Positions 4,546-51,999 are shown, numbered from the stretch's first letter. The stretch is 64,000 bases of DNA from an uncultured Bacilli bacterium (GCA_949505625.1 CATBQD010000002.1:1-64000); one strand, 5' to 3'. Notes: generated from the sequence alone by a model not told the origin. Made by a program: numbers and translations.

Positions 4546-5679
4546 ATGAAAAAAAGAGGATTTACATTAACAGAAGTATTAGGAGTTATTGTTATTTTAG
4601 GTCTTATTGCCCTTATTATATTTCCTAATGTAAGTAAATCAATTAAAAATTCAAAAGAAAAGCTATATAAAGAACAAGTAGCACTTATTGAGGAAAATGC
4701 AAGAAAATGGGGAGTAGAGCATACAGCTCAATTACCTGATAGTGGTTCTTATTATTTGGAATTAAATGATTTGGTACTAGGTGGGTATGTTTCACAAAAA
4801 GAATTAAAGGATCCAAGAGATGAAAGCCCTATGGAAGGGTGTGTTGTCATTAGTTATGATCCTTCTTATAATCAATATAATTATACTTATACAGAAGCAT
4901 CTTGTGAAGATCAAAGACCAGTAGAGAAACCAACTTTAGTAGAAAAGGTAAATACGTCGTCAGAAGTAGCAACCAATGATCCAGATGGTAATAAAAGATA
5001 TGTAGGAGCCAATCCAAATAATTATGTAAAATTTAATAATGAATTATGGAGAATTATTGGAGTATTTAATGGACAAGTGAAAATAATAAAATCTGATTTT
5101 TATAAAACCGGAATTGCTTGGGATACAAATAATAGCAATGATTGGAGTAAAGCATCATTACAAACAGAATTAAATACTACTTATTGGGATACTATAGATA
5201 GTGATTCCCAAAATATGGTAGATCAAAATCATATATGGTATTTGGGTGGAGCAGCATATTCTGCTGCAAATTTTGAAAGATCAAATCTTTATGGTTTTGA
5301 AAGAGGGACATCTGTGTATAGTGGACGCCCAACAACATGGCAAGGAAAAGTTGGATTAATATATCCAAGTGATTATGGATATTCAACAAGCAGTATGAGT
5401 AATGATTGTAATTTAGATCTTAGTAATTGGAATAATTATTCAGATTGTTATAATAATAGTTGGATATATAGTTCCTTATATTATCAATGGACGATTACTT
5501 CAGATAACAGTCGACCGAGTTTTGTGTGGTGGATAGCTGGTACAGGTTATGTTGATCCATCAACAGCAAATTATACTAGTGATGTTTTAGGAGTGTATCC
5601 AGTCCTATATTTAAAAGCAGATGTGAAAGTTACTTCAGGTTCTGGAAGTAATACAAATCCATTTAATATAAGTCTCTAA
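4546..5679 (+). CDS. prepilin-type protein with a large Trp/Tyr/Asn-rich C-terminal domain
   Basis: The N-terminus MKKRG|FTLTEVLGVIVILGL is a class III (type IV prepilin) leader, with Gly at the cut and Glu at mature position 5, followed by the hydrophobic assembly helix. After a pilin-like stalk to about residue 120, a linker rich in Glu/Pro/Val leads to a domain from about residue 148 (RYVGANPNNYVKFNNELWRI, then IGVFNGQVKIIKSD). At 377 residues it is two to three times longer than ComGC-type pseudopilins, so the C-terminal half is an added module that I cannot name. It is transcribed alone, between its own promoter and the terminator at 5704. No prepilin peptidase or assembly ATPase is in the window. 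Confidence 0.7.
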   Translation: MKKRGFTLTEVLGVIVILGLIALIIFPNVSKSIKNSKEKLYKEQVALIEENARKWGVEHTAQLPDSGSYYLELNDLVLGGYVSQKELKDPRDESPMEGCVVISYDPSYNQYNYTYTEASCEDQRPVEKPTLVEKVNTSSEVATNDPDGNKRYVGANPNNYVKFNNELWRIIGVFNGQVKIIKSDFYKTGIAWDTNNSNDWSKASLQTELNTTYWDTIDSDSQNMVDQNHIWYLGGAAYSAANFERSNLYGFERGTSVYSGRPTTWQGKVGLIYPSDYGYSTSSMSNDCNLDLSNWNNYSDCYNNSWIYSSLYYQWTITSDNSRPSFVWWIAGTGYVDPSTANYTSDVLGVYPVLYLKADVKVTSGSGSNTNPFNISL

Positions 5680-44133: not shown

Positions 44134-45033
44134 ATGAAAATATTATGTATAGGACATGTAGCATATGACATAACAGTTCCTTTAGACGAGTTTCCAGTTG
44201 AAAATACAAAAAATAGAGTCCAAGAAAGAGTAGAATGTGGAGGAGGACCTGCTAGTAATGCAGCCTATTTACTTGGAAAATGGGGTATGGATGTTTCTAT
44301 TGCTGGAGTTGTTGGAAATGATGAATATGGTAAAAAAATAAAAAAAGAGTTTGAAGATATTGGTGTAAATACAACTTATTTAGAACTTAACACAGAACAT
44401 CAAACGACATCTAGCTTTATTATAGCGAATAAAGGAAATGGATCTAGGACAATATTTACTTATAGACCTAGTACTGTAAAAATGAAGCCAATCAAATTAA
44501 ATTTTGAACCAGATATAATTTTAATTGATGGACAGGAAGTTGAGATCTCAAAAGAAATTATCAGAAGCTATCCAAATGCAATCAGTATTATTGATGCTGG
44601 AAGACCCAAACCAGAAATTATTGAACTTTCTAAAATGGTAAATTATACAGTTTGCTCTAAAGAATTTGCAGAAAGTGTTACAGGAATGACAATCGATTAT
44701 GAAAAAACAAGTACTTTAATAGAACTTTATAAGAAAATGGAGTCTATTTTTAAAAATAATATTGTTGTTACTTTAGAGTCTAAAGGTGCATTATATAAAT
44801 ATCAGAATCAGGTTAAAATAATGCCATCGATTAAAGTAAAGGCTTTAGACTCGACAGGAGCTGGAGACTTATTTCATGGCGCTTTTGCATATGGAATCGC
44901 AAAAAATATGGCATATGAAGAAGTAATTAAACTTTCAAATATAACAGGAGCTCTATCAGTAACCAGAGTGGGTGGTCGTTTTTCTGCTCCGAGTGTAGAA
45001 GAAGTAAAGAGTGTATATCATGACTTTGAATGA
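44134..45033 (+). CDS. PfkB family sugar kinase
   Basis: This ribokinase-fold kinase phosphorylates a sugar or nucleoside. Signature 1 is GGGPASNAAYLLGKWG (about residues 36-51) and signature 2 is DSTGAGDLFHGAFAYG (239-254) with the catalytic Asp245. At 299 residues it is full length. The substrate cannot be assigned. SD AAGGTGAT and TATAAT (about 44112) precede it. It overlaps the Smr-domain gene by 14 bp. Confidence 0.87.
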   Translation: MKILCIGHVAYDITVPLDEFPVENTKNRVQERVECGGGPASNAAYLLGKWGMDVSIAGVVGNDEYGKKIKKEFEDIGVNTTYLELNTEHQTTSSFIIANKGNGSRTIFTYRPSTVKMKPIKLNFEPDIILIDGQEVEISKEIIRSYPNAISIIDAGRPKPEIIELSKMVNYTVCSKEFAESVTGMTIDYEKTSTLIELYKKMESIFKNNIVVTLESKGALYKYQNQVKIMPSIKVKALDSTGAGDLFHGAFAYGIAKNMAYEEVIKLSNITGALSVTRVGGRFSAPSVEEVKSVYHDFE

Positions 45034-45286
45034 TATTATTTTTATAGAACAATATCCAAAGTTAGATCTCCATGGATATGATAGAGAAACAGCCCGAGTA
45101 GCTATTTTGGATTTTATTAATGAAAATAAAAAAATGAGGCAGGAAATATTTGTTATTGTTCATGGAATTGGTAGCGGAATATTGAGAGAAACAACAAAGC
45201 AGGTCTTATCTAAAAATAAATATGTATTGGAATTTAAAACCTATTATTACAACAATGGTTGTACAATTGTTCAAATTTCTTTATAA
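45020..45286 (+). CDS. stand-alone Smr domain protein
   Basis: The 88 residues are one Smr domain: KLDLHGYDRETARVAILDFI, then IVHGIGSGILRETTKQVL and YYYNNGCTIVQI. Smr domains are nucleases, found at the C-terminus of MutS2 or alone, and some act on stalled-ribosome mRNAs. The ATG lies within pfkB, so it is translationally coupled; a GTG at 45011 is an alternative. No SD is clear. Confidence 0.85.
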   Translation: MTLNDIIFIEQYPKLDLHGYDRETARVAILDFINENKKMRQEIFVIVHGIGSGILRETTKQVLSKNKYVLEFKTYYYNNGCTIVQISL

Positions 45287-45364
45287 AATATGATAAAATT
45301 GTGAAAAAAGTTTGACAAGTGAGTGAAAAAGGTGCTACCATAAAAATAAATAGGAGGAATGCTT

Positions 45365-47011
45365 ATGTATAGAAGTAGGGAAGATGGATTTGTCTTAACT
45401 GATATTATTCTACAAATTCTGTTTTTCGTATTGTTTATATTCGCTTTGATATGGTTATTTCCTACCAAAGGATTCGTGAATAATATGAAAAAACAAGTTT
45501 CTGGAACAAGTGCTGATTATCAAGTTTTATCTAATAGAATTTTTAATGAAAATTTACTTGATATGAAAACAGCAGCAGAAAGTTATTATACAATTCCAAG
45601 ATTGCCAAGAAATACAGGTGATAAAGTATCAATGACGTTAAGTGAAATGATAGATAAAAAACTTGTATTGCCAATTCAAGATAAAAATGGGAATAGTTGT
45701 GATATTAATGATTCATATGTTGAGGTTATAAAAAGAGCTGATGAATATGAATTAAAGGTTGTTTTAAATTGCTCAGATAAAGAAGATTATTTAGTTGTAC
45801 ATTTGGGATGTTATCAATATTGTGAAAATGATATTTGTGAAAAAACAAATGACACTAATACTGTTACAAATTCTAATTCAGGACAAACAACTGTTGTGAA
45901 AAATATAGTAACAACTGAAAGACCAGTAATTAATAATAATATTACAATAAATAATTGTATTGATTGTGAAGAAGGGCCAGTTAGAACTGAACCAATATAT
46001 TATTGTAAATATATAAATGGAAAGTATTATGGCAAAAATGGAAATTTGGTAGATAGTACAACATATCAAAAAGAGTGTATTGTAGAGCCAGTATATTATT
46101 GTCAATACGTAAATGGGAAGTATTATGGTAAAAATGGAAATGTAGTAGATAGTGCAACATACCAAAAAGAGTGTATTGTAGAGCCAGTATATTATTGCCA
46201 ATATGTAAATGGAAAATACTATGGTAAAAATGGAAATGTAGTAAGTGCAACGATTTATCAAAAAGAATGTGTTGCAGAACCTGTAAAAACACTTTATTAT
46301 GAATATCGAACAAAAACTTTAGTTTCTAATGAAGTTGCAACGAAAATGTGTACATATTATCCAGTAGAAGAGACAAGCGAGTATGTTTATACCTTGGGGT
46401 ATACTGGAAGTGATATTATAGATATTTCAAGATATCCATATGCAATAAAATTACCTGTTGGTGCAACGAATGTTCAAATAAATCGTATTTCATATGGACA
46501 AGAAACATTTAATTTATCAACCTGGAAAGGATTAAAAACAAATAGTTCTATTTATAATTATGAATATGATGATTCAAAATGGAGTGCAAAAGATACCATT
46601 ACAACAACAAGATTTAAAAATTCAGCACTCAGTAAAAAACACTTTAGCGATGTTAGAGTTCTTAATACCAAAACAGTATCATATAGTAATTATGTAGAAT
46701 ATAGGATTGATTATCGTGTACAGTTTAATCGTACTAATATTTTGAAAGATAGATATTTATATACATACAATGATAGTAATGTAGGAAATATTTACTATGT
46801 ACCTATACGCTTTCATTTAACATATGATATTGTAAGTTCAAAAACGAAAACAAGACCATGTTCAAATTTAACTCAAAAAGAAAATAATCATGTAATAAAA
46901 CGATATACAGATTATGATATGGAAACAAGTTATGAATATGGGCCAAGAAAGTGGACAATGAATCCAAATTTAAAGGGTGTTGAGTATACAGGTAAAACAG
47001 AATGGAGATAA
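45365..47011 (+). CDS. surface protein with three Cys-flanked 32-residue repeats, paralogue A
   Basis: The N-terminus (MYRSREDGFVLTDIILQILF) leads into a membrane helix and looks like a prepilin leader with Asp in place of Glu at position +5. A conserved region follows (ESYYTIPRLPRNTGDKVSMT, LSEMIDKKLVLPIQDKNGN, SYVEVI). After an Asn/Thr linker come three repeats (YYCxYxNGKYYGKNGNxV, ..YQKEC) at 45998-46285. The last 240 residues are beta-rich and Tyr/Thr-rich. The 549 residues have no sorting signal, so it is held by the N-terminal helix. The ATG at 45365 is 7 bp after AGGAGG. TTGACA is at 45312. Confidence 0.7.
   Translation: MYRSREDGFVLTDIILQILFFVLFIFALIWLFPTKGFVNNMKKQVSGTSADYQVLSNRIFNENLLDMKTAAESYYTIPRLPRNTGDKVSMTLSEMIDKKLVLPIQDKNGNSCDINDSYVEVIKRADEYELKVVLNCSDKEDYLVVHLGCYQYCENDICEKTNDTNTVTNSNSGQTTVVKNIVTTERPVINNNITINNCIDCEEGPVRTEPIYYCKYINGKYYGKNGNLVDSTTYQKECIVEPVYYCQYVNGKYYGKNGNVVDSATYQKECIVEPVYYCQYVNGKYYGKNGNVVSATIYQKECVAEPVKTLYYEYRTKTLVSNEVATKMCTYYPVEETSEYVYTLGYTGSDIIDISRYPYAIKLPVGATNVQINRISYGQETFNLSTWKGLKTNSSIYNYEYDDSKWSAKDTITTTRFKNSALSKKHFSDVRVLNTKTVSYSNYVEYRIDYRVQFNRTNILKDRYLYTYNDSNVGNIYYVPIRFHLTYDIVSSKTKTRPCSNLTQKENNHVIKRYTDYDMETSYEYGPRKWTMNPNLKGVEYTGKTEWR
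45998..46285 (+). repeat. three tandem 96-bp in-frame repeats
   Basis: Each unit encodes YYC(K/Q)Y(I/V)NGKYYGKNGN followed by a variable stretch ending in YQKEC and (I/V)xEPV. Units start at 45998, 46094 and 46190. Two Cys per unit suggest one disulfide each. Confidence 0.85.
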
Positions 47012-47033
47012 AGATGTATTAACATCTTTTTTT
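47010..47033 (+). terminator. terminator between the two surface-protein genes
   Basis: AAAGATGT / ACATCTTT (47010-47017 with 47022-47029), ATTA loop, followed by T residues. Confidence 0.82.
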
Positions 47034-47153
47034 CATTCAAAATTTGTTGATTTTTCAAGCGAAACAAGGGTTCTGAAATTGACAAAGATTAATAACTATG
47101 ATATGATGAAAACACATAGGCATTTTTGTATAAATAAAGAATTTTGTAGAAAT

Positions 47154-47182
47154 TTGACAATGTCTGTGTTTTGTGATATTAT
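47154..47182 (+). promoter_or_regulatory. consensus promoter of surface protein B
   Basis: TTGACA (47154-47159), 17-bp spacer, TATTAT (47177-47182). It lies 32 bp before the ATG at 47214 and excludes the much longer upstream reading frame from 46977. Confidence 0.8.
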
Positions 47183-47213
47183 AACGCAACCAATTGAGAA
47201 GGGGGAATTTATT

Positions 47214-48860
47214 ATGTATGAATATGATGAAAGAAAAGATAAAAGCTCAATTAAAGGGGTGGTTATTCAAATACTATTAATGGTAATGTTCATATTTATT
47301 TTAATATGCTTATTTCCTAGTAAAAGTGATTTGGATAAATTAAAGACAACAGAAAGTATTAGTTCATTAGAACCGTTATATGATCGTATTTTTAATGATA
47401 ATATTATTGCAATGAAAGATGCAGCTAAAAGTTATTATACAACTCCAAGATTACCTAAAAATGTTGGAGATAAAGTATCGATGACTTTAAGCGAAATGCT
47501 TGATAAAAAAATAATTTTGCCTTTTGTTGATAGAGAAGGTAATCAATGTGATCTTAAAGAGTCATATGTAAGTATTACAAAAGAAGATGAAGAATTCATT
47601 ATGAAAGTAAACTTGAAATGTACTAATCAAGAGAACTATTTATTAGTTGTGATGGGATGCTACAATTACTGTGAAACAGGAATTTGTGAGAAAAATGAGG
47701 AAGATATAAAATCTCCAACTGTCAATCCATCTGGACCTACTACAATTATTAAAGAAACTATAGTTAGGCCAATTATTAATAATAATATTACAATTAATAA
47801 TTGTGTAAGTGATAACTGCAAACCTGGAAAATATTATTGCCAATATGTTAATGGAAACTATTATGGAGTAAATGGTGATCTAGTTGATAAAGCTACTTAT
47901 GATAAGGAATGTAAGTTAGAAGAAAAGTATTACTGTAAATTTGTAAATGGAGCTTATTACGGAAAAAATGGTAATATTGTAAGTGAAGAAACATATAAAA
48001 AAGAATGTGAAGATGCTCCTACTCCAACTTATATTTGTAAGTTTGTAGATGGAAAATACTATGGTAAAAATGGAAATGTAGTAGATAAAGCTACTTATGA
48101 TAAAGAATGTACTACTCAAAAGGAATATCAATGTAAGTACATGAAGACAACAAATAGCAGTTATGGTCCTTGGTCTTCTTGGTCAGACTGGTCTGAGAGA
48201 AGATTATCTACAAGCAATTTAAGACAAGAACGCTATAAAACAGTTACACAGCAAAAGCAAGAAAATCAAATTATTGGATATAAAACAGTAACATATAAAG
48301 ATCCAAATAAACCAATTTATGGTCCAAAACAAGTGTTAATTGGTACTAGAATTGAAAAAGAATGTGCTGAGTATGGGTATGTAATTACTTCTACTGGAAG
48401 TGTTAGTAATAATGTAACATATGGAGCATGGAAATCTGCTGGATTGGTGAAACTTTATTCAACTCCAACAAATACAAGTACAACAAGATATACAAAGGTA
48501 TCAGTTGGAACAGAAACTTGTGGTGATTGTGGAGCTAGATTATATACAATTTATAAAAAAGAAACTAGAACAGTAAGTAAAGGTTCATCAACAACAAGTG
48601 AAAATTCTGTATATCAATGTTTAAGAACAGTTCAACATGAAGTACCAGTATATGGAACTCAAAATGTGATTATTGATTATGACACATCAACAAAAAGAGA
48701 AGCTGTATATGGTTTAGTAACTGTAGAAAGAGATATAACCCTTTATAGTTATAGAACGAGAGATATTATTGGTGGAAAAACGGATTATCAAATTAGTAAT
48801 TGTAATGATACAAACTTGTTAAATAATGGATATCAAATTATTGATAAATGGGAAATATAG
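47214..48860 (+). CDS. surface protein with Cys-flanked repeats and a WSxWSxWS segment, paralogue B
   Basis: This 548-residue paralogue of protein A has one N-terminal helix (about residues 17-37), then the shared conserved region (KSYYTTPRLPKNVGDKVSMT, LSEMLDKKIILPFVDREGNQ). The linker (RPIINNNITINNC) is nearly the same, followed by three repeats at 47832-48119. The C-terminal 240 residues differ from A and start with GPWSSWSDWSERR, a Trp pattern like thrombospondin-type modules, with many Cys and Tyr. The SD is AAGGGGG. It has its own strong promoter and probably continues into the 48881 gene. Confidence 0.7.
   Translation: MYEYDERKDKSSIKGVVIQILLMVMFIFILICLFPSKSDLDKLKTTESISSLEPLYDRIFNDNIIAMKDAAKSYYTTPRLPKNVGDKVSMTLSEMLDKKIILPFVDREGNQCDLKESYVSITKEDEEFIMKVNLKCTNQENYLLVVMGCYNYCETGICEKNEEDIKSPTVNPSGPTTIIKETIVRPIINNNITINNCVSDNCKPGKYYCQYVNGNYYGVNGDLVDKATYDKECKLEEKYYCKFVNGAYYGKNGNIVSEETYKKECEDAPTPTYICKFVDGKYYGKNGNVVDKATYDKECTTQKEYQCKYMKTTNSSYGPWSSWSDWSERRLSTSNLRQERYKTVTQQKQENQIIGYKTVTYKDPNKPIYGPKQVLIGTRIEKECAEYGYVITSTGSVSNNVTYGAWKSAGLVKLYSTPTNTSTTRYTKVSVGTETCGDCGARLYTIYKKETRTVSKGSSTTSENSVYQCLRTVQHEVPVYGTQNVIIDYDTSTKREAVYGLVTVERDITLYSYRTRDIIGGKTDYQISNCNDTNLLNNGYQIIDKWEI
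47832..48119 (+). repeat. three diverged repeats of the 32-residue module
   Basis: Units read YYCQYVNGNYYGVNGDLVDK, YYCKFVNGAYYGKNGNIVSE and YICKFVDGKYYGKNGNVVDK, each closing with a Tyr-x-Lys-Glu-Cys-type end. They are less alike than those of protein A, as expected if A's copies were recently amplified or homogenised. Confidence 0.8.
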
Positions 48861-48880
48861 AATAAGAGGGAGATGTGAAT

Positions 48881-51442
48881 ATGGAAGTTTTAAATGATAT
48901 AATAGCAAAAAGAATGGTAGCTATAGAAACTGATATTATAGCAGGAGCTTTTTCAAATAAAGATGAATTTAATGCTGAAATCGACCGCTTGATTTCTGTA
49001 ATGACAAAAACAGCTATTTTAAAAGGAATTGATAAGGATGCAGCAGAAAATTATCTTCAAGAAAATTTTGCACCTCAAGCTAATGAAATTTATGAAAGAA
49101 ATGTAGTTTCTTCAGGTGCTGCAGATATGCCAATTGATTATGCATTTGCTGAACGTCAGAAAGAAATAGAAAGATTAATTGAGGCAGGAGATTTAGAAGA
49201 GGCAGATAAAAAAATTGATCAAATCTTAGCTGTTTTGGAAGATGATGATTATGTTAAAGATTCAATTGCAGATGGAGCTTTTTCACAGGCAGATGTTGAT
49301 TATTTTAAAAATGTTGCATATCCTTATTTTCAAGAATTAAAAGATGAAATGATTATTCCAGAACCTGAAAAGCAAGGATTGTTACAGAGAATTAAAAATG
49401 GTGCAATATTTGTTGTAACAGGAAAAAATCCTTATGATAATAAAACTGTTAAAATAGAACATGAAAAAAAATCTTTAAAAGAAAAATTCTTAGATAGCAA
49501 ATTAGTAGAATGGGCAAGAAGACATAAAGTTGTTGTAACAGCTGCTGGTTTAGCAGTAGTTTTAGGAGCTGGGATCTTTATTGGTGGAAAATTCTTGCAT
49601 AGTCGTGCTGAAAGTAATTCAGATGATTCTACTACTAAGCAAGAACAATTACAAGATGTTAATGTAACAATGGCAACGTTTGAAGTAGATGAAGAACATA
49701 ATTTCAATATAAATGATCAGGTGACTCATACAGAAAAATTGCAATTATTGGCAAAAGTAATGATGGAACGTGGGGTACCAGTAGTTTCGGAAAAAGAGTG
49801 TATGGAACTTAGCAATGAAGGAAAATTAGCAGTCTCTCCTGAACAGTTAAATAATTGGTTAATCTCTATGAATTTAGAAGATATGGATGAATTAACTTTT
49901 ACTAAATTATTAGCAGATAGTGAGACTGATAAGGAAGAATTAAGTAGTGATTTCACAAGAGTTAGTAATATTTTAGGTTCTATTTATACTACAAAAGAAG
50001 AAAATGCATTTATTTATGAGTTTATTTCAAATAAAGAATATAGTGAATATATTAAGGCTTATGAAGAATCTATTATTCAAAATCAAAAAGGTGAATCTGA
50101 AAGTTTAGTTACATTAATTAAAAGTAGAGTGTATAATCCAGTGGCAGCTACTAGTAGTGGATCTTTAGGAATGCTTTCAACTTCATTAGTTTATCAACAA
50201 GCTAATGTTTATAATGCACAAGTAATTGGTCAAGACATTATGGATTTATATAATGTGAATTATGATTGTAAGACAGATACAACTTCTACTTTTTATTCAG
50301 ATGATTGGGCAGAATATATGAGGAAGTTAAACTCAAAATTTGATGCTGCAATCACATATACAGGATCAGAAGTTGCTGCTTACACAGAGTATGTTTTAAC
50401 ATTAACAGATGCTCAAGATGATAATAAAGTATATATTGAAGATCAGGTATTACCTTATTTAGAAAAGAATGGTATTACATTAGGTGAATGGGATGCTTTA
50501 GAAAATATTGATAATAATAATCACCAAGTAGGATATCAGGGAACTGGTGATACCAAAGGAAATGGTACCACAGTATCAACTCCTCCAGAGGTAACAGCAG
50601 TCACAACCATTGTAAAAGCGCCAGAAACAGAAGATGAAAAGAAGGTGCAAGATCAAGTAGAAGCTGGACTTGAAGGAGAAAATCGTCAAAATTTTGAAGA
50701 TGTAGTAGATGGTTTCGCGGCATCTCAAGGTGGAGTAGTAACAGATGAAAGCAGAGTAACGATTACGAATCTAAATGTTTATATAGATGGAAAAGGCAAT
50801 ATTATTGATAAGACAACAGGGGATAAAGTTGTTACTGGTACAAAAGAGGAAATCGATGAAATTTTAAATCGTCATCCTGGATTGTCAGATTGGACAACAG
50901 TAGAAGATGGAAGAATTCATTATTCAGAAGTAGATGATTATATTCCTCAAGATTCTCGTCCAGGATCAAGTTATTCAGAAAGTGGTGTTCAACAACCAAC
51001 AATACCTCCACAATCAAATTCTGTATTGGATAGCGTTGATCAAGAAGTTTTGGGGACATTAACTCCAGAAGAGCAGGCCGCATTAGAAGAAATGTTAAAT
51101 GCAGGAAATGGTCCAGTAGCTGGTGAAACTGTAGAAGAAGTCTTTAGTGATATCGTATATGGAAATTATACAGTGCCACAATTAATGGGAAATCCATCTT
51201 TATGTAAGAATATTCCAGAAAATATTTTGAAAAATCAATTTCCTGAAATTTGGGCAGTTTATCAAAATTGGTTAGAAACACAAAAGCAAGAAGAAGTGGC
51301 ACTTCAGTCAGATGAAACACAAATTGTATCTTCTAATACAGCAATTGATGAAATAGCAGCTCAAAAAACAGCTTTAGAAGAAGTAAGAGCACAATTAACT
51401 GGTGATGGACAATCGTTAGAAGAATCTGAAAAAACATTATAA
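48881..51442 (+). CDS. large single-pass membrane protein of unknown function
   Basis: The 853-residue protein has a soluble acidic N-terminal part (1-200, helical, with two similar-looking segments near 20-60 and 100-145), a membrane helix at about residues 216-237 (VVVTAAGLAVVLGAGIFIGG) and a long external part. The external part is Asp/Glu/Thr-rich with a Pro/Thr linker near 560-610 and a Gln/Glu-rich tail. No family is known to me. The start at 48881 follows AGAGGGAGA; GTG 48875 is inside the SD region. It directly follows surface protein B and is probably co-transcribed, so it may anchor or export the repeat proteins. That is inference. Confidence 0.6.
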   Translation: MEVLNDIIAKRMVAIETDIIAGAFSNKDEFNAEIDRLISVMTKTAILKGIDKDAAENYLQENFAPQANEIYERNVVSSGAADMPIDYAFAERQKEIERLIEAGDLEEADKKIDQILAVLEDDDYVKDSIADGAFSQADVDYFKNVAYPYFQELKDEMIIPEPEKQGLLQRIKNGAIFVVTGKNPYDNKTVKIEHEKKSLKEKFLDSKLVEWARRHKVVVTAAGLAVVLGAGIFIGGKFLHSRAESNSDDSTTKQEQLQDVNVTMATFEVDEEHNFNINDQVTHTEKLQLLAKVMMERGVPVVSEKECMELSNEGKLAVSPEQLNNWLISMNLEDMDELTFTKLLADSETDKEELSSDFTRVSNILGSIYTTKEENAFIYEFISNKEYSEYIKAYEESIIQNQKGESESLVTLIKSRVYNPVAATSSGSLGMLSTSLVYQQANVYNAQVIGQDIMDLYNVNYDCKTDTTSTFYSDDWAEYMRKLNSKFDAAITYTGSEVAAYTEYVLTLTDAQDDNKVYIEDQVLPYLEKNGITLGEWDALENIDNNNHQVGYQGTGDTKGNGTTVSTPPEVTAVTTIVKAPETEDEKKVQDQVEAGLEGENRQNFEDVVDGFAASQGGVVTDESRVTITNLNVYIDGKGNIIDKTTGDKVVTGTKEEIDEILNRHPGLSDWTTVEDGRIHYSEVDDYIPQDSRPGSSYSESGVQQPTIPPQSNSVLDSVDQEVLGTLTPEEQAALEEMLNAGNGPVAGETVEEVFSDIVYGNYTVPQLMGNPSLCKNIPENILKNQFPEIWAVYQNWLETQKQEEVALQSDETQIVSSNTAIDEIAAQKTALEEVRAQLTGDGQSLEESEKTL

Positions 51443-51579: not shown

Positions 51580-51999
51580 ATGAAGGGTACATTTCTTTTT
51601 GAGTATGTAAATGAAAATGAATTTAAAAAGTTAGAGAGATCTTTAAAAAAGTATAATATGTTGGCATATAAGAAATTGTACTTTGAATATTATCCTGCAT
51701 TAAAAGAAGGTAATTTTCTTGGTGAATTGGTATCTACAAATAAGGCAAAAGGAACAAAGACCTATGAATTGAAATTGCCAACAGATGCGATGTTTTCAAA
51801 AGTGCATGGTGATATAAAATTACATTATATTGTATATGAAAAAGAGTCTATTGTAATGTTAAATACATTAACTCCAGAAGATATTTTAGCGGAAGGTCAT
51901 CAGTCTGAACTTGTTACATTTAAAGGAGTTATGGTTTCAAAAGAACACTCTGAAAAAGATATGTTTAAAATTAATTTATTAAATATGTTACAGAAGTAA
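51580..51999 (+). CDS. unknown 139-residue protein
   Basis: A soluble, basic protein beginning KGTFLFEYVNENEFKKLERS, with an alternating strand-like pattern later (GDIKLHYIVYEKESIVMLNT). I recognise no family. It has a near-consensus promoter, a very strong SD (GAGGAGGGGG) and its own terminator, so it is expected to be well expressed. Composition is like its neighbours. It converges with the tRNA genes. Confidence 0.55.
   Translation: MKGTFLFEYVNENEFKKLERSLKKYNMLAYKKLYFEYYPALKEGNFLGELVSTNKAKGTKTYELKLPTDAMFSKVHGDIKLHYIVYEKESIVMLNTLTPEDILAEGHQSELVTFKGVMVSKEHSEKDMFKINLLNMLQK

Follow-up and report, generated by a model that had tools for sequence, protein, structure and literature searches.

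Two neighbouring genes of an uncultured gut bacterium (Bacilli), designated A and B, encode paralogous proteins whose conserved PRLP..GDK domain is, by profile comparison, the globular domain of a type IV pilin. As a rule, type IV pilins are regarded solely as subunits of a filament. In our opinion A and B are probably pilin-derived surface display proteins, with an unprocessed pilin base, an exchangeable stalk and tip, and the product of the next gene, C, as a partner. We also lean towards the wider reading that they belong to an order-wide family in which the pilin domain is a permanent, unprocessed membrane base for stalks and tips, independent of the pilus and outlasting its loss.

In the preferred explanation we infer membrane retention without processing, the geometry of display and the binding function. 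The base would be a pilin domain formed by a membrane helix, an amphipathic helix and a sheet. Because the prepilin-peptidase site is lost, the protein would stay in the membrane with its N-terminus inside, outside any filament. An interchangeable stalk (Cys-locked hairpin-helix repeats, a Pro-rich linker or other repeats) would carry the tip outward through the envelope. Tip B may be a long two-stranded ribbon whose distal subdomain probably binds host glycan, mucus or another cell. A would be a genus-level duplicate bearing another tip, and C a single-pass partner, evolving rapidly, that could connect the surface complex with the inside of the cell.

Layout of the locus

The genes lie in the window, i.e., the whole stretch of 64,000 nucleotides that was analysed; the source genome is a 1.49 Mb assembly in 31 contigs. 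Residue numbers for A, apart from its length of 548 aa, run from the ATG at 45359.

44134-45033, plus strand: PfkB-type sugar kinase, a conserved upstream neighbour
45011-45286, plus strand: stand-alone Smr domain protein, a conserved upstream neighbour
45365-47011, plus strand: gene A, 548 aa, with a membrane helix, a pilin-like base, an Asn/Ile-rich linker, three Cys repeats and tip A
45392-45457, plus strand: membrane helix of A, preceded by the pilin-like start DGFVLTD; helix 12-33 in the model
45509-45838, plus strand: pilin-like globular base of A, the second half of the long helix and an antiparallel sheet
45998-46078, 46094-46174 and 46190-46270, plus strand: two-Cys repeats of A, each a predicted hairpin and short helix
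46286-47008, plus strand: tip A, with homologous tips on other bases (L039, L040); the AF2 model has no confident structure here
47214-48860, plus strand: gene B, 548 aa, built like A with a different tip; the order-wide member
47250-47312, plus strand: membrane helix of B, preceded by KDKSSIKG
47370-47687, plus strand: pilin-like globular base of B, from profile searches and the AF2 model
47832-47912, 47928-48008 and 48030-48110, plus strand: two-Cys repeats of B, from motif match and the AF2 model
48126-48857, plus strand: tip B, modelled by AF2 as two strands, each of about 56 residues (48222-48389, 48603-48770), separated by a subdomain
48881-51442, plus strand: gene C, an 853-aa single-pass protein with an acidic tail, of a divergent family adjoining B
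49529-49585, plus strand: membrane segment of C, a single hydrophobic segment (residues 217-235)
51580-51999, plus strand: 139-aa protein of no known family (Pfam and PHROGs searched), a conserved downstream neighbour

All three genes were confirmed where an earlier reading of the sequence alone had placed them. Its starts proved correct, as ribosome sites suit 45365, 47214 and 48881: AGGAGG stands 7 nt ahead of the ATG of A, AAGGGGG precedes that of B, and C, whose start gives 853 aa, begins 20 bp after B. A longer reading frame for B, starting at 46977, was discarded because the start at 47214 has a ribosome site and agrees with relatives.

The sequence-only reading described A and B as paralogues with a common N-terminal helix, conserved domain and set of three modules of two Cys each, and with different C-terminal domains. 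Alignment bears this out: identity is 51% over 158 residues of the base and only 23% in the tips. It also knew no named family for the repeat, and profile searches matched none, either for the repeat or for A, B and C. In particular, searches of A, B and C against Pfam, NCBIfam and PHROGs gave no curated family above the cut-off, and relatives have scattered weak family matches in Pfam. When the base and the full B family were searched as profiles against the PDB sequences, no chain matched.

A prophage or plasmid origin of the locus was discarded, given no phage, plasmid or PHROGs match and a stable chromosomal neighbourhood; a viral fold library yielded only ribbon-type matches of poor geometry. 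Sortase anchoring was also discarded. A ends with EYTGKTEWR and B with IIDKWEI, both without an LPXTG sorting signal; the genome does carry sortases.

The base domain and the prepilin signal

A profile of the base matched three bona fide pilins of the lineage (L136-L138), which start KKKGFTMVELLAVI. A profile that contains the membrane helix might match through hydrophobicity; therefore, it was rebuilt without the helix to rule out this effect. Among 2,532 ORFs, the helix-free profile matched outside the family only the same three canonical pilins (E 1.7e-8 to 3e-11), and the next best match had E 0.08. On whole genomes, secondary matches reached E 1e-4 to 1e-16. Most of them start with GFTLxE, GFTMxE or AFTLIE, and they come from several independent genomes. 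The pilin matches aligned at the equivalent place behind the helix (18 pilins were collected and part of the alignments was inspected).

Structure prediction points the same way. The AF2 models of A and B have helices at 13-33 and 53-74 followed by an antiparallel sheet, with a pLDDT of about 75-90 in this block; a long alpha1 helix and then an antiparallel sheet is the pilin topology. A Foldseek search of both models against the PDB found no significant match to solved pilins. Among the listed matches one pilin recurred, ComZ, whose probability was 0.28 with the model of A and 0.69 with that of B (E-value 0.8 for B). ComZ is a large minor pilin, and from its name we take it to be a competence pilin working in a pilus.

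The absence of a significant match in solved-structure searches and the low pairwise similarity of the base to pilins would suit a resemblance by chance or convergence, with A and B being ordinary single-pass adhesins. We consider this very improbable: the matches of the helix-free profile are almost all pilins, from separate genomes and in the same position relative to the helix.

The class III signal of a type IV pilin has a leader that ends in a small residue (Gly or Ala) at -1, followed by a hydrophobic tract in which position +5 is as a rule Glu (PMC8179133, PMC10191384). The 78 proteins of the family have largely lost it: only 8 carry Gly at -1, and Glu at +5 is absent throughout (54 have Asp there), although 61 retain Phe at +1. 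B, with K at -1 and G at +5, lacks the signal. A keeps Gly at -1 and Phe at +1, yet has Asp rather than Glu at +5; since the first two residues are retained, A might still be processed by prepilin peptidase. The pilus genes of the source genome (PilB, PilC, PilD and pilins) are grouped on another contig, apart from B, and the genome encodes about 20 N_methyl proteins. Judged by the loss of signal residues and by the distance from the pilus genes, A and B are not ordinary pilins.

They could nevertheless be working minor pilins with a divergent signal, i.e., modular adhesins at the tip of a type IV pilus. The homology of the base to pilins is what this explanation expects, ComZ as the recurring pilin of the fold search is itself a large minor pilin, A retains DGFVLTD, and most genomes of the order carry pilus genes (PilD in 258 of 288, PilC in 271 of 288). 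Moreover, a capping minor pilin may lack Glu5 (PMC10191384), and odd leaders are tolerated in processing. However, the defining signal includes Gly or Ala at -1 (PMC8179133), and Gly is gone in about 90% of the family; the gene also lies outside the pilus cluster. Together with the genomes that have lost the pilus (see below), this makes a minor-pilin role unlikely in our view.

Several other pilin-like genes were observed in the window and in relatives. At 4546-5679 the window encodes a 377-aa protein with a canonical pilin start, MKKRGFTLTEVLGVIVILG, and an N_methyl match above the cut-off; because of this start it is likely a modular pilin. On contig 1 of G000, a genome of the genus (L125:2581-4740), one protein joins a canonical pilin start to Ig-like domains and an ALK/LTK glycine-rich domain (Pfam E 7e-76). 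Contig 10 of G000 carries, at about 56-64 kb, a second T2SSE/T2SSF gene set near a pilin-like gene and a sortase, perhaps a Tad-type system. Six further loci (L212, L213, L215, L217, L221:2335-3444 and L222:8161-9300) encode membrane proteins of about 370-600 aa with a pilin-like globular domain and without the prepilin signal. Several of these end with GTxxxPYIIK-like sequences, and the group is possibly a second recruited pilin family.

Stalks, tips and gene neighbours

The stalk varies within the family. The repeat module of A and B follows the pattern Y-x-C...G-x-YYG..G...Y..EC, three times in each; 20,000 shuffles of A did not yield even one module. AF2 predicts a hairpin and a short helix for it (pLDDT about 70-88). 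Within the family, surveyed at 76 loci, Cys repeats occur in 13 of the 78 proteins in 2-8 copies (family range 0-8), a Pro-rich linker replaces them in 25, and the stalks of genus g52 are built of other repeats. One relative of B (L044) has eight copies, and L045 of the same genus has none.

Tips are exchanged as well. In L039 a homologue of tip A follows Big2-like domains, and in L040 one is carried by a divergent base. Tip B is modelled with a pLDDT mostly of 80-90; read from their order, its two long strands would pair. A C-terminal end of the GYxxTGNK type is conserved in most relatives of B. Since stalks vary, tip A recurs on other bases and identity is so much higher in the base than in the tip, the sequences indicate that base, stalk and tip recombine as modules. 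The modular scheme of shared base and stalk with different tips, proposed from the sequence alone, thus stands and is strengthened by the variation in repeat number and the tip swaps; it had missed the identity of the base as a type IV pilin domain. The role of the tip is predicted to be adhesion, which we regard as probable.

Gene C was described in the same reading as a large single-pass protein with a long external part, right behind B. One hydrophobic segment was indeed found, and the external part follows from orientation: because basic residues flank the N side of the segment, about 215 aa would lie inside and about 600 aa outside. A C-type protein is the next gene in about half of the loci, and it is absent from the Faecisoma subgroup among the 76 loci surveyed. 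The C sequences form a dozen BLAST clusters, most of which are tied to one large cluster by profile comparison with probability 92-99, values to which composition bias may contribute. Its position suggests that C is a partner of B.

The usual gene order over the 76 loci is sugar kinase, Smr, B, optional C and the 139-aa protein. The neighbourhood is thus conserved, and neither the repeat nor the tips matched a named family, so neither observation that would have refuted the sequence-only reading was made. Of 73 loci whose sequence extends far enough, 62 have Smr no more than 600 bp upstream; the 139-aa gene follows at a distance of up to 4.5 kb in 27 of 41 loci. The 139-aa protein shows 98-99% identity in two relatives of the genus and recurs downstream of B across the family.

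Named relatives of the source organism are uncultured Bacilli, Tenericutes and Mycoplasmatota MAGs, including Candidatus Faecisoma merdavium, which GTDB places in order RF39, family CAG-822 (PMC8035907). Judging by this relative, the order of the source genome is probably RF39. Within the order the base domain is nearly universal, with matches in 263 of 288 genomes. In a sample of 247 genomes of the class it was matched in 30, all from the window's own family, and not found in the other families sampled. Gene A is present in full length in G000, G001 and G005, three of the six genomes belonging to the genus; therefore, it looks like a genus-level duplicate.

Such near-universality in the order, together with a form of only 164 aa without stalk or tip (L175, L176), makes a core envelope role the main rival. 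The protein would then be a component of the envelope or of sensing (e.g., in envelope assembly, or in surface sensing with C), and the tips would be sensors or spacers. The fixed Smr neighbour, the predicted cytoplasmic part of C and the higher conservation of the base relative to the stalk inside the genus agree with this; the tipless form, in turn, is unaccounted for by pure display. On the other hand, large, repetitive and exchangeable stalks and tips with changing copy number typify surface ligands, C is missing from a whole subgroup, and family profile searches recognized no catalytic or signalling domain. We therefore regard an envelope or sensing role as improbable, though it is the first alternative to be considered beside surface display.

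Loss of the pilus and comparison with known systems

Genus g52 bears directly on the relation to the pilus. In its four genomes (G059, G121, G173, G217; completeness 91-94%), profile searches found no PilB, no PilC and no N_methyl match; N_methyl proteins number about 9 or more in the family's other genera. All four genomes have the base domain of B (E about 1e-41 to 1e-43). The genes are intact, encode about 600-880 aa with stalk repeats of their own, and adjoin Smr in three of the four. In the order as a whole, PilC was not found in 17 genomes, of which 16 have the base domain, a count in which single missing genes of incomplete genomes mean little outside g52. Both observations speak against minor pilins. 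We infer from the genomes that in g52 B is kept independently of PilB/PilC assembly. Since B persists in these relatives although pilus motor and pilins are gone, a building block of the pilus has apparently turned into a fixed base for exchangeable tips. Against surface display counts the prepilin peptidase of g52 (L227-L230), retained with intact GxGD and CxxC motifs though there is no recognizable pilin substrate.

If the preferred reading of A and B as display proteins is true, they would document a step in the disassembly and reuse of such a machine, with a pilin domain decoupled from its filament, and would give a handle on surface protein presentation in an order of gut bacteria that is mostly uncultured. 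As the family shows, profile searches that depend on the N-terminal signal overlook pilin-derived proteins in which it is missing. We found no description of a pilin-derived membrane base kept after pilus loss in the open-access literature.

Parts of A and B recall known domains. The Cys repeat has the GxYYxxxG pattern of KOW and MORN_2 repeats (Pfam) and, in addition, paired Cys; no single copy among the proteins listed is above the Pfam threshold for these families. Tip B shares the WSxWSxW start of the thrombospondin type 1 repeat (Pfam TSP1_spondin). Its assignment to that family was rejected, with E 0.019 in one relative and 15.6 bits vs a cut-off of 41.

Among pilins, ComZ of Thermus thermophilus (PDB 6qvi) aligns with both models at 3.4-3.5 A over 65-68 columns, which is not significant (E 0.5 or worse). 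Tip-capping minor pilins (PMC10191384) have lost Glu5 as this family has; B additionally lacks the small residue at -1. Modular type IV pilins, among them PilB and PilC of Streptococcus sanguinis (PMC8179133), provide a close parallel in architecture. Like them, A and B consist of an N-terminal pilin module and a grafted C-terminal module, the function of which is predicted here. Unlike them, the A/B family mostly lacks the class III signal peptide, its gene lies outside the pilus cluster, and it is retained in a genus without PilB, PilC and recognizable pilins.
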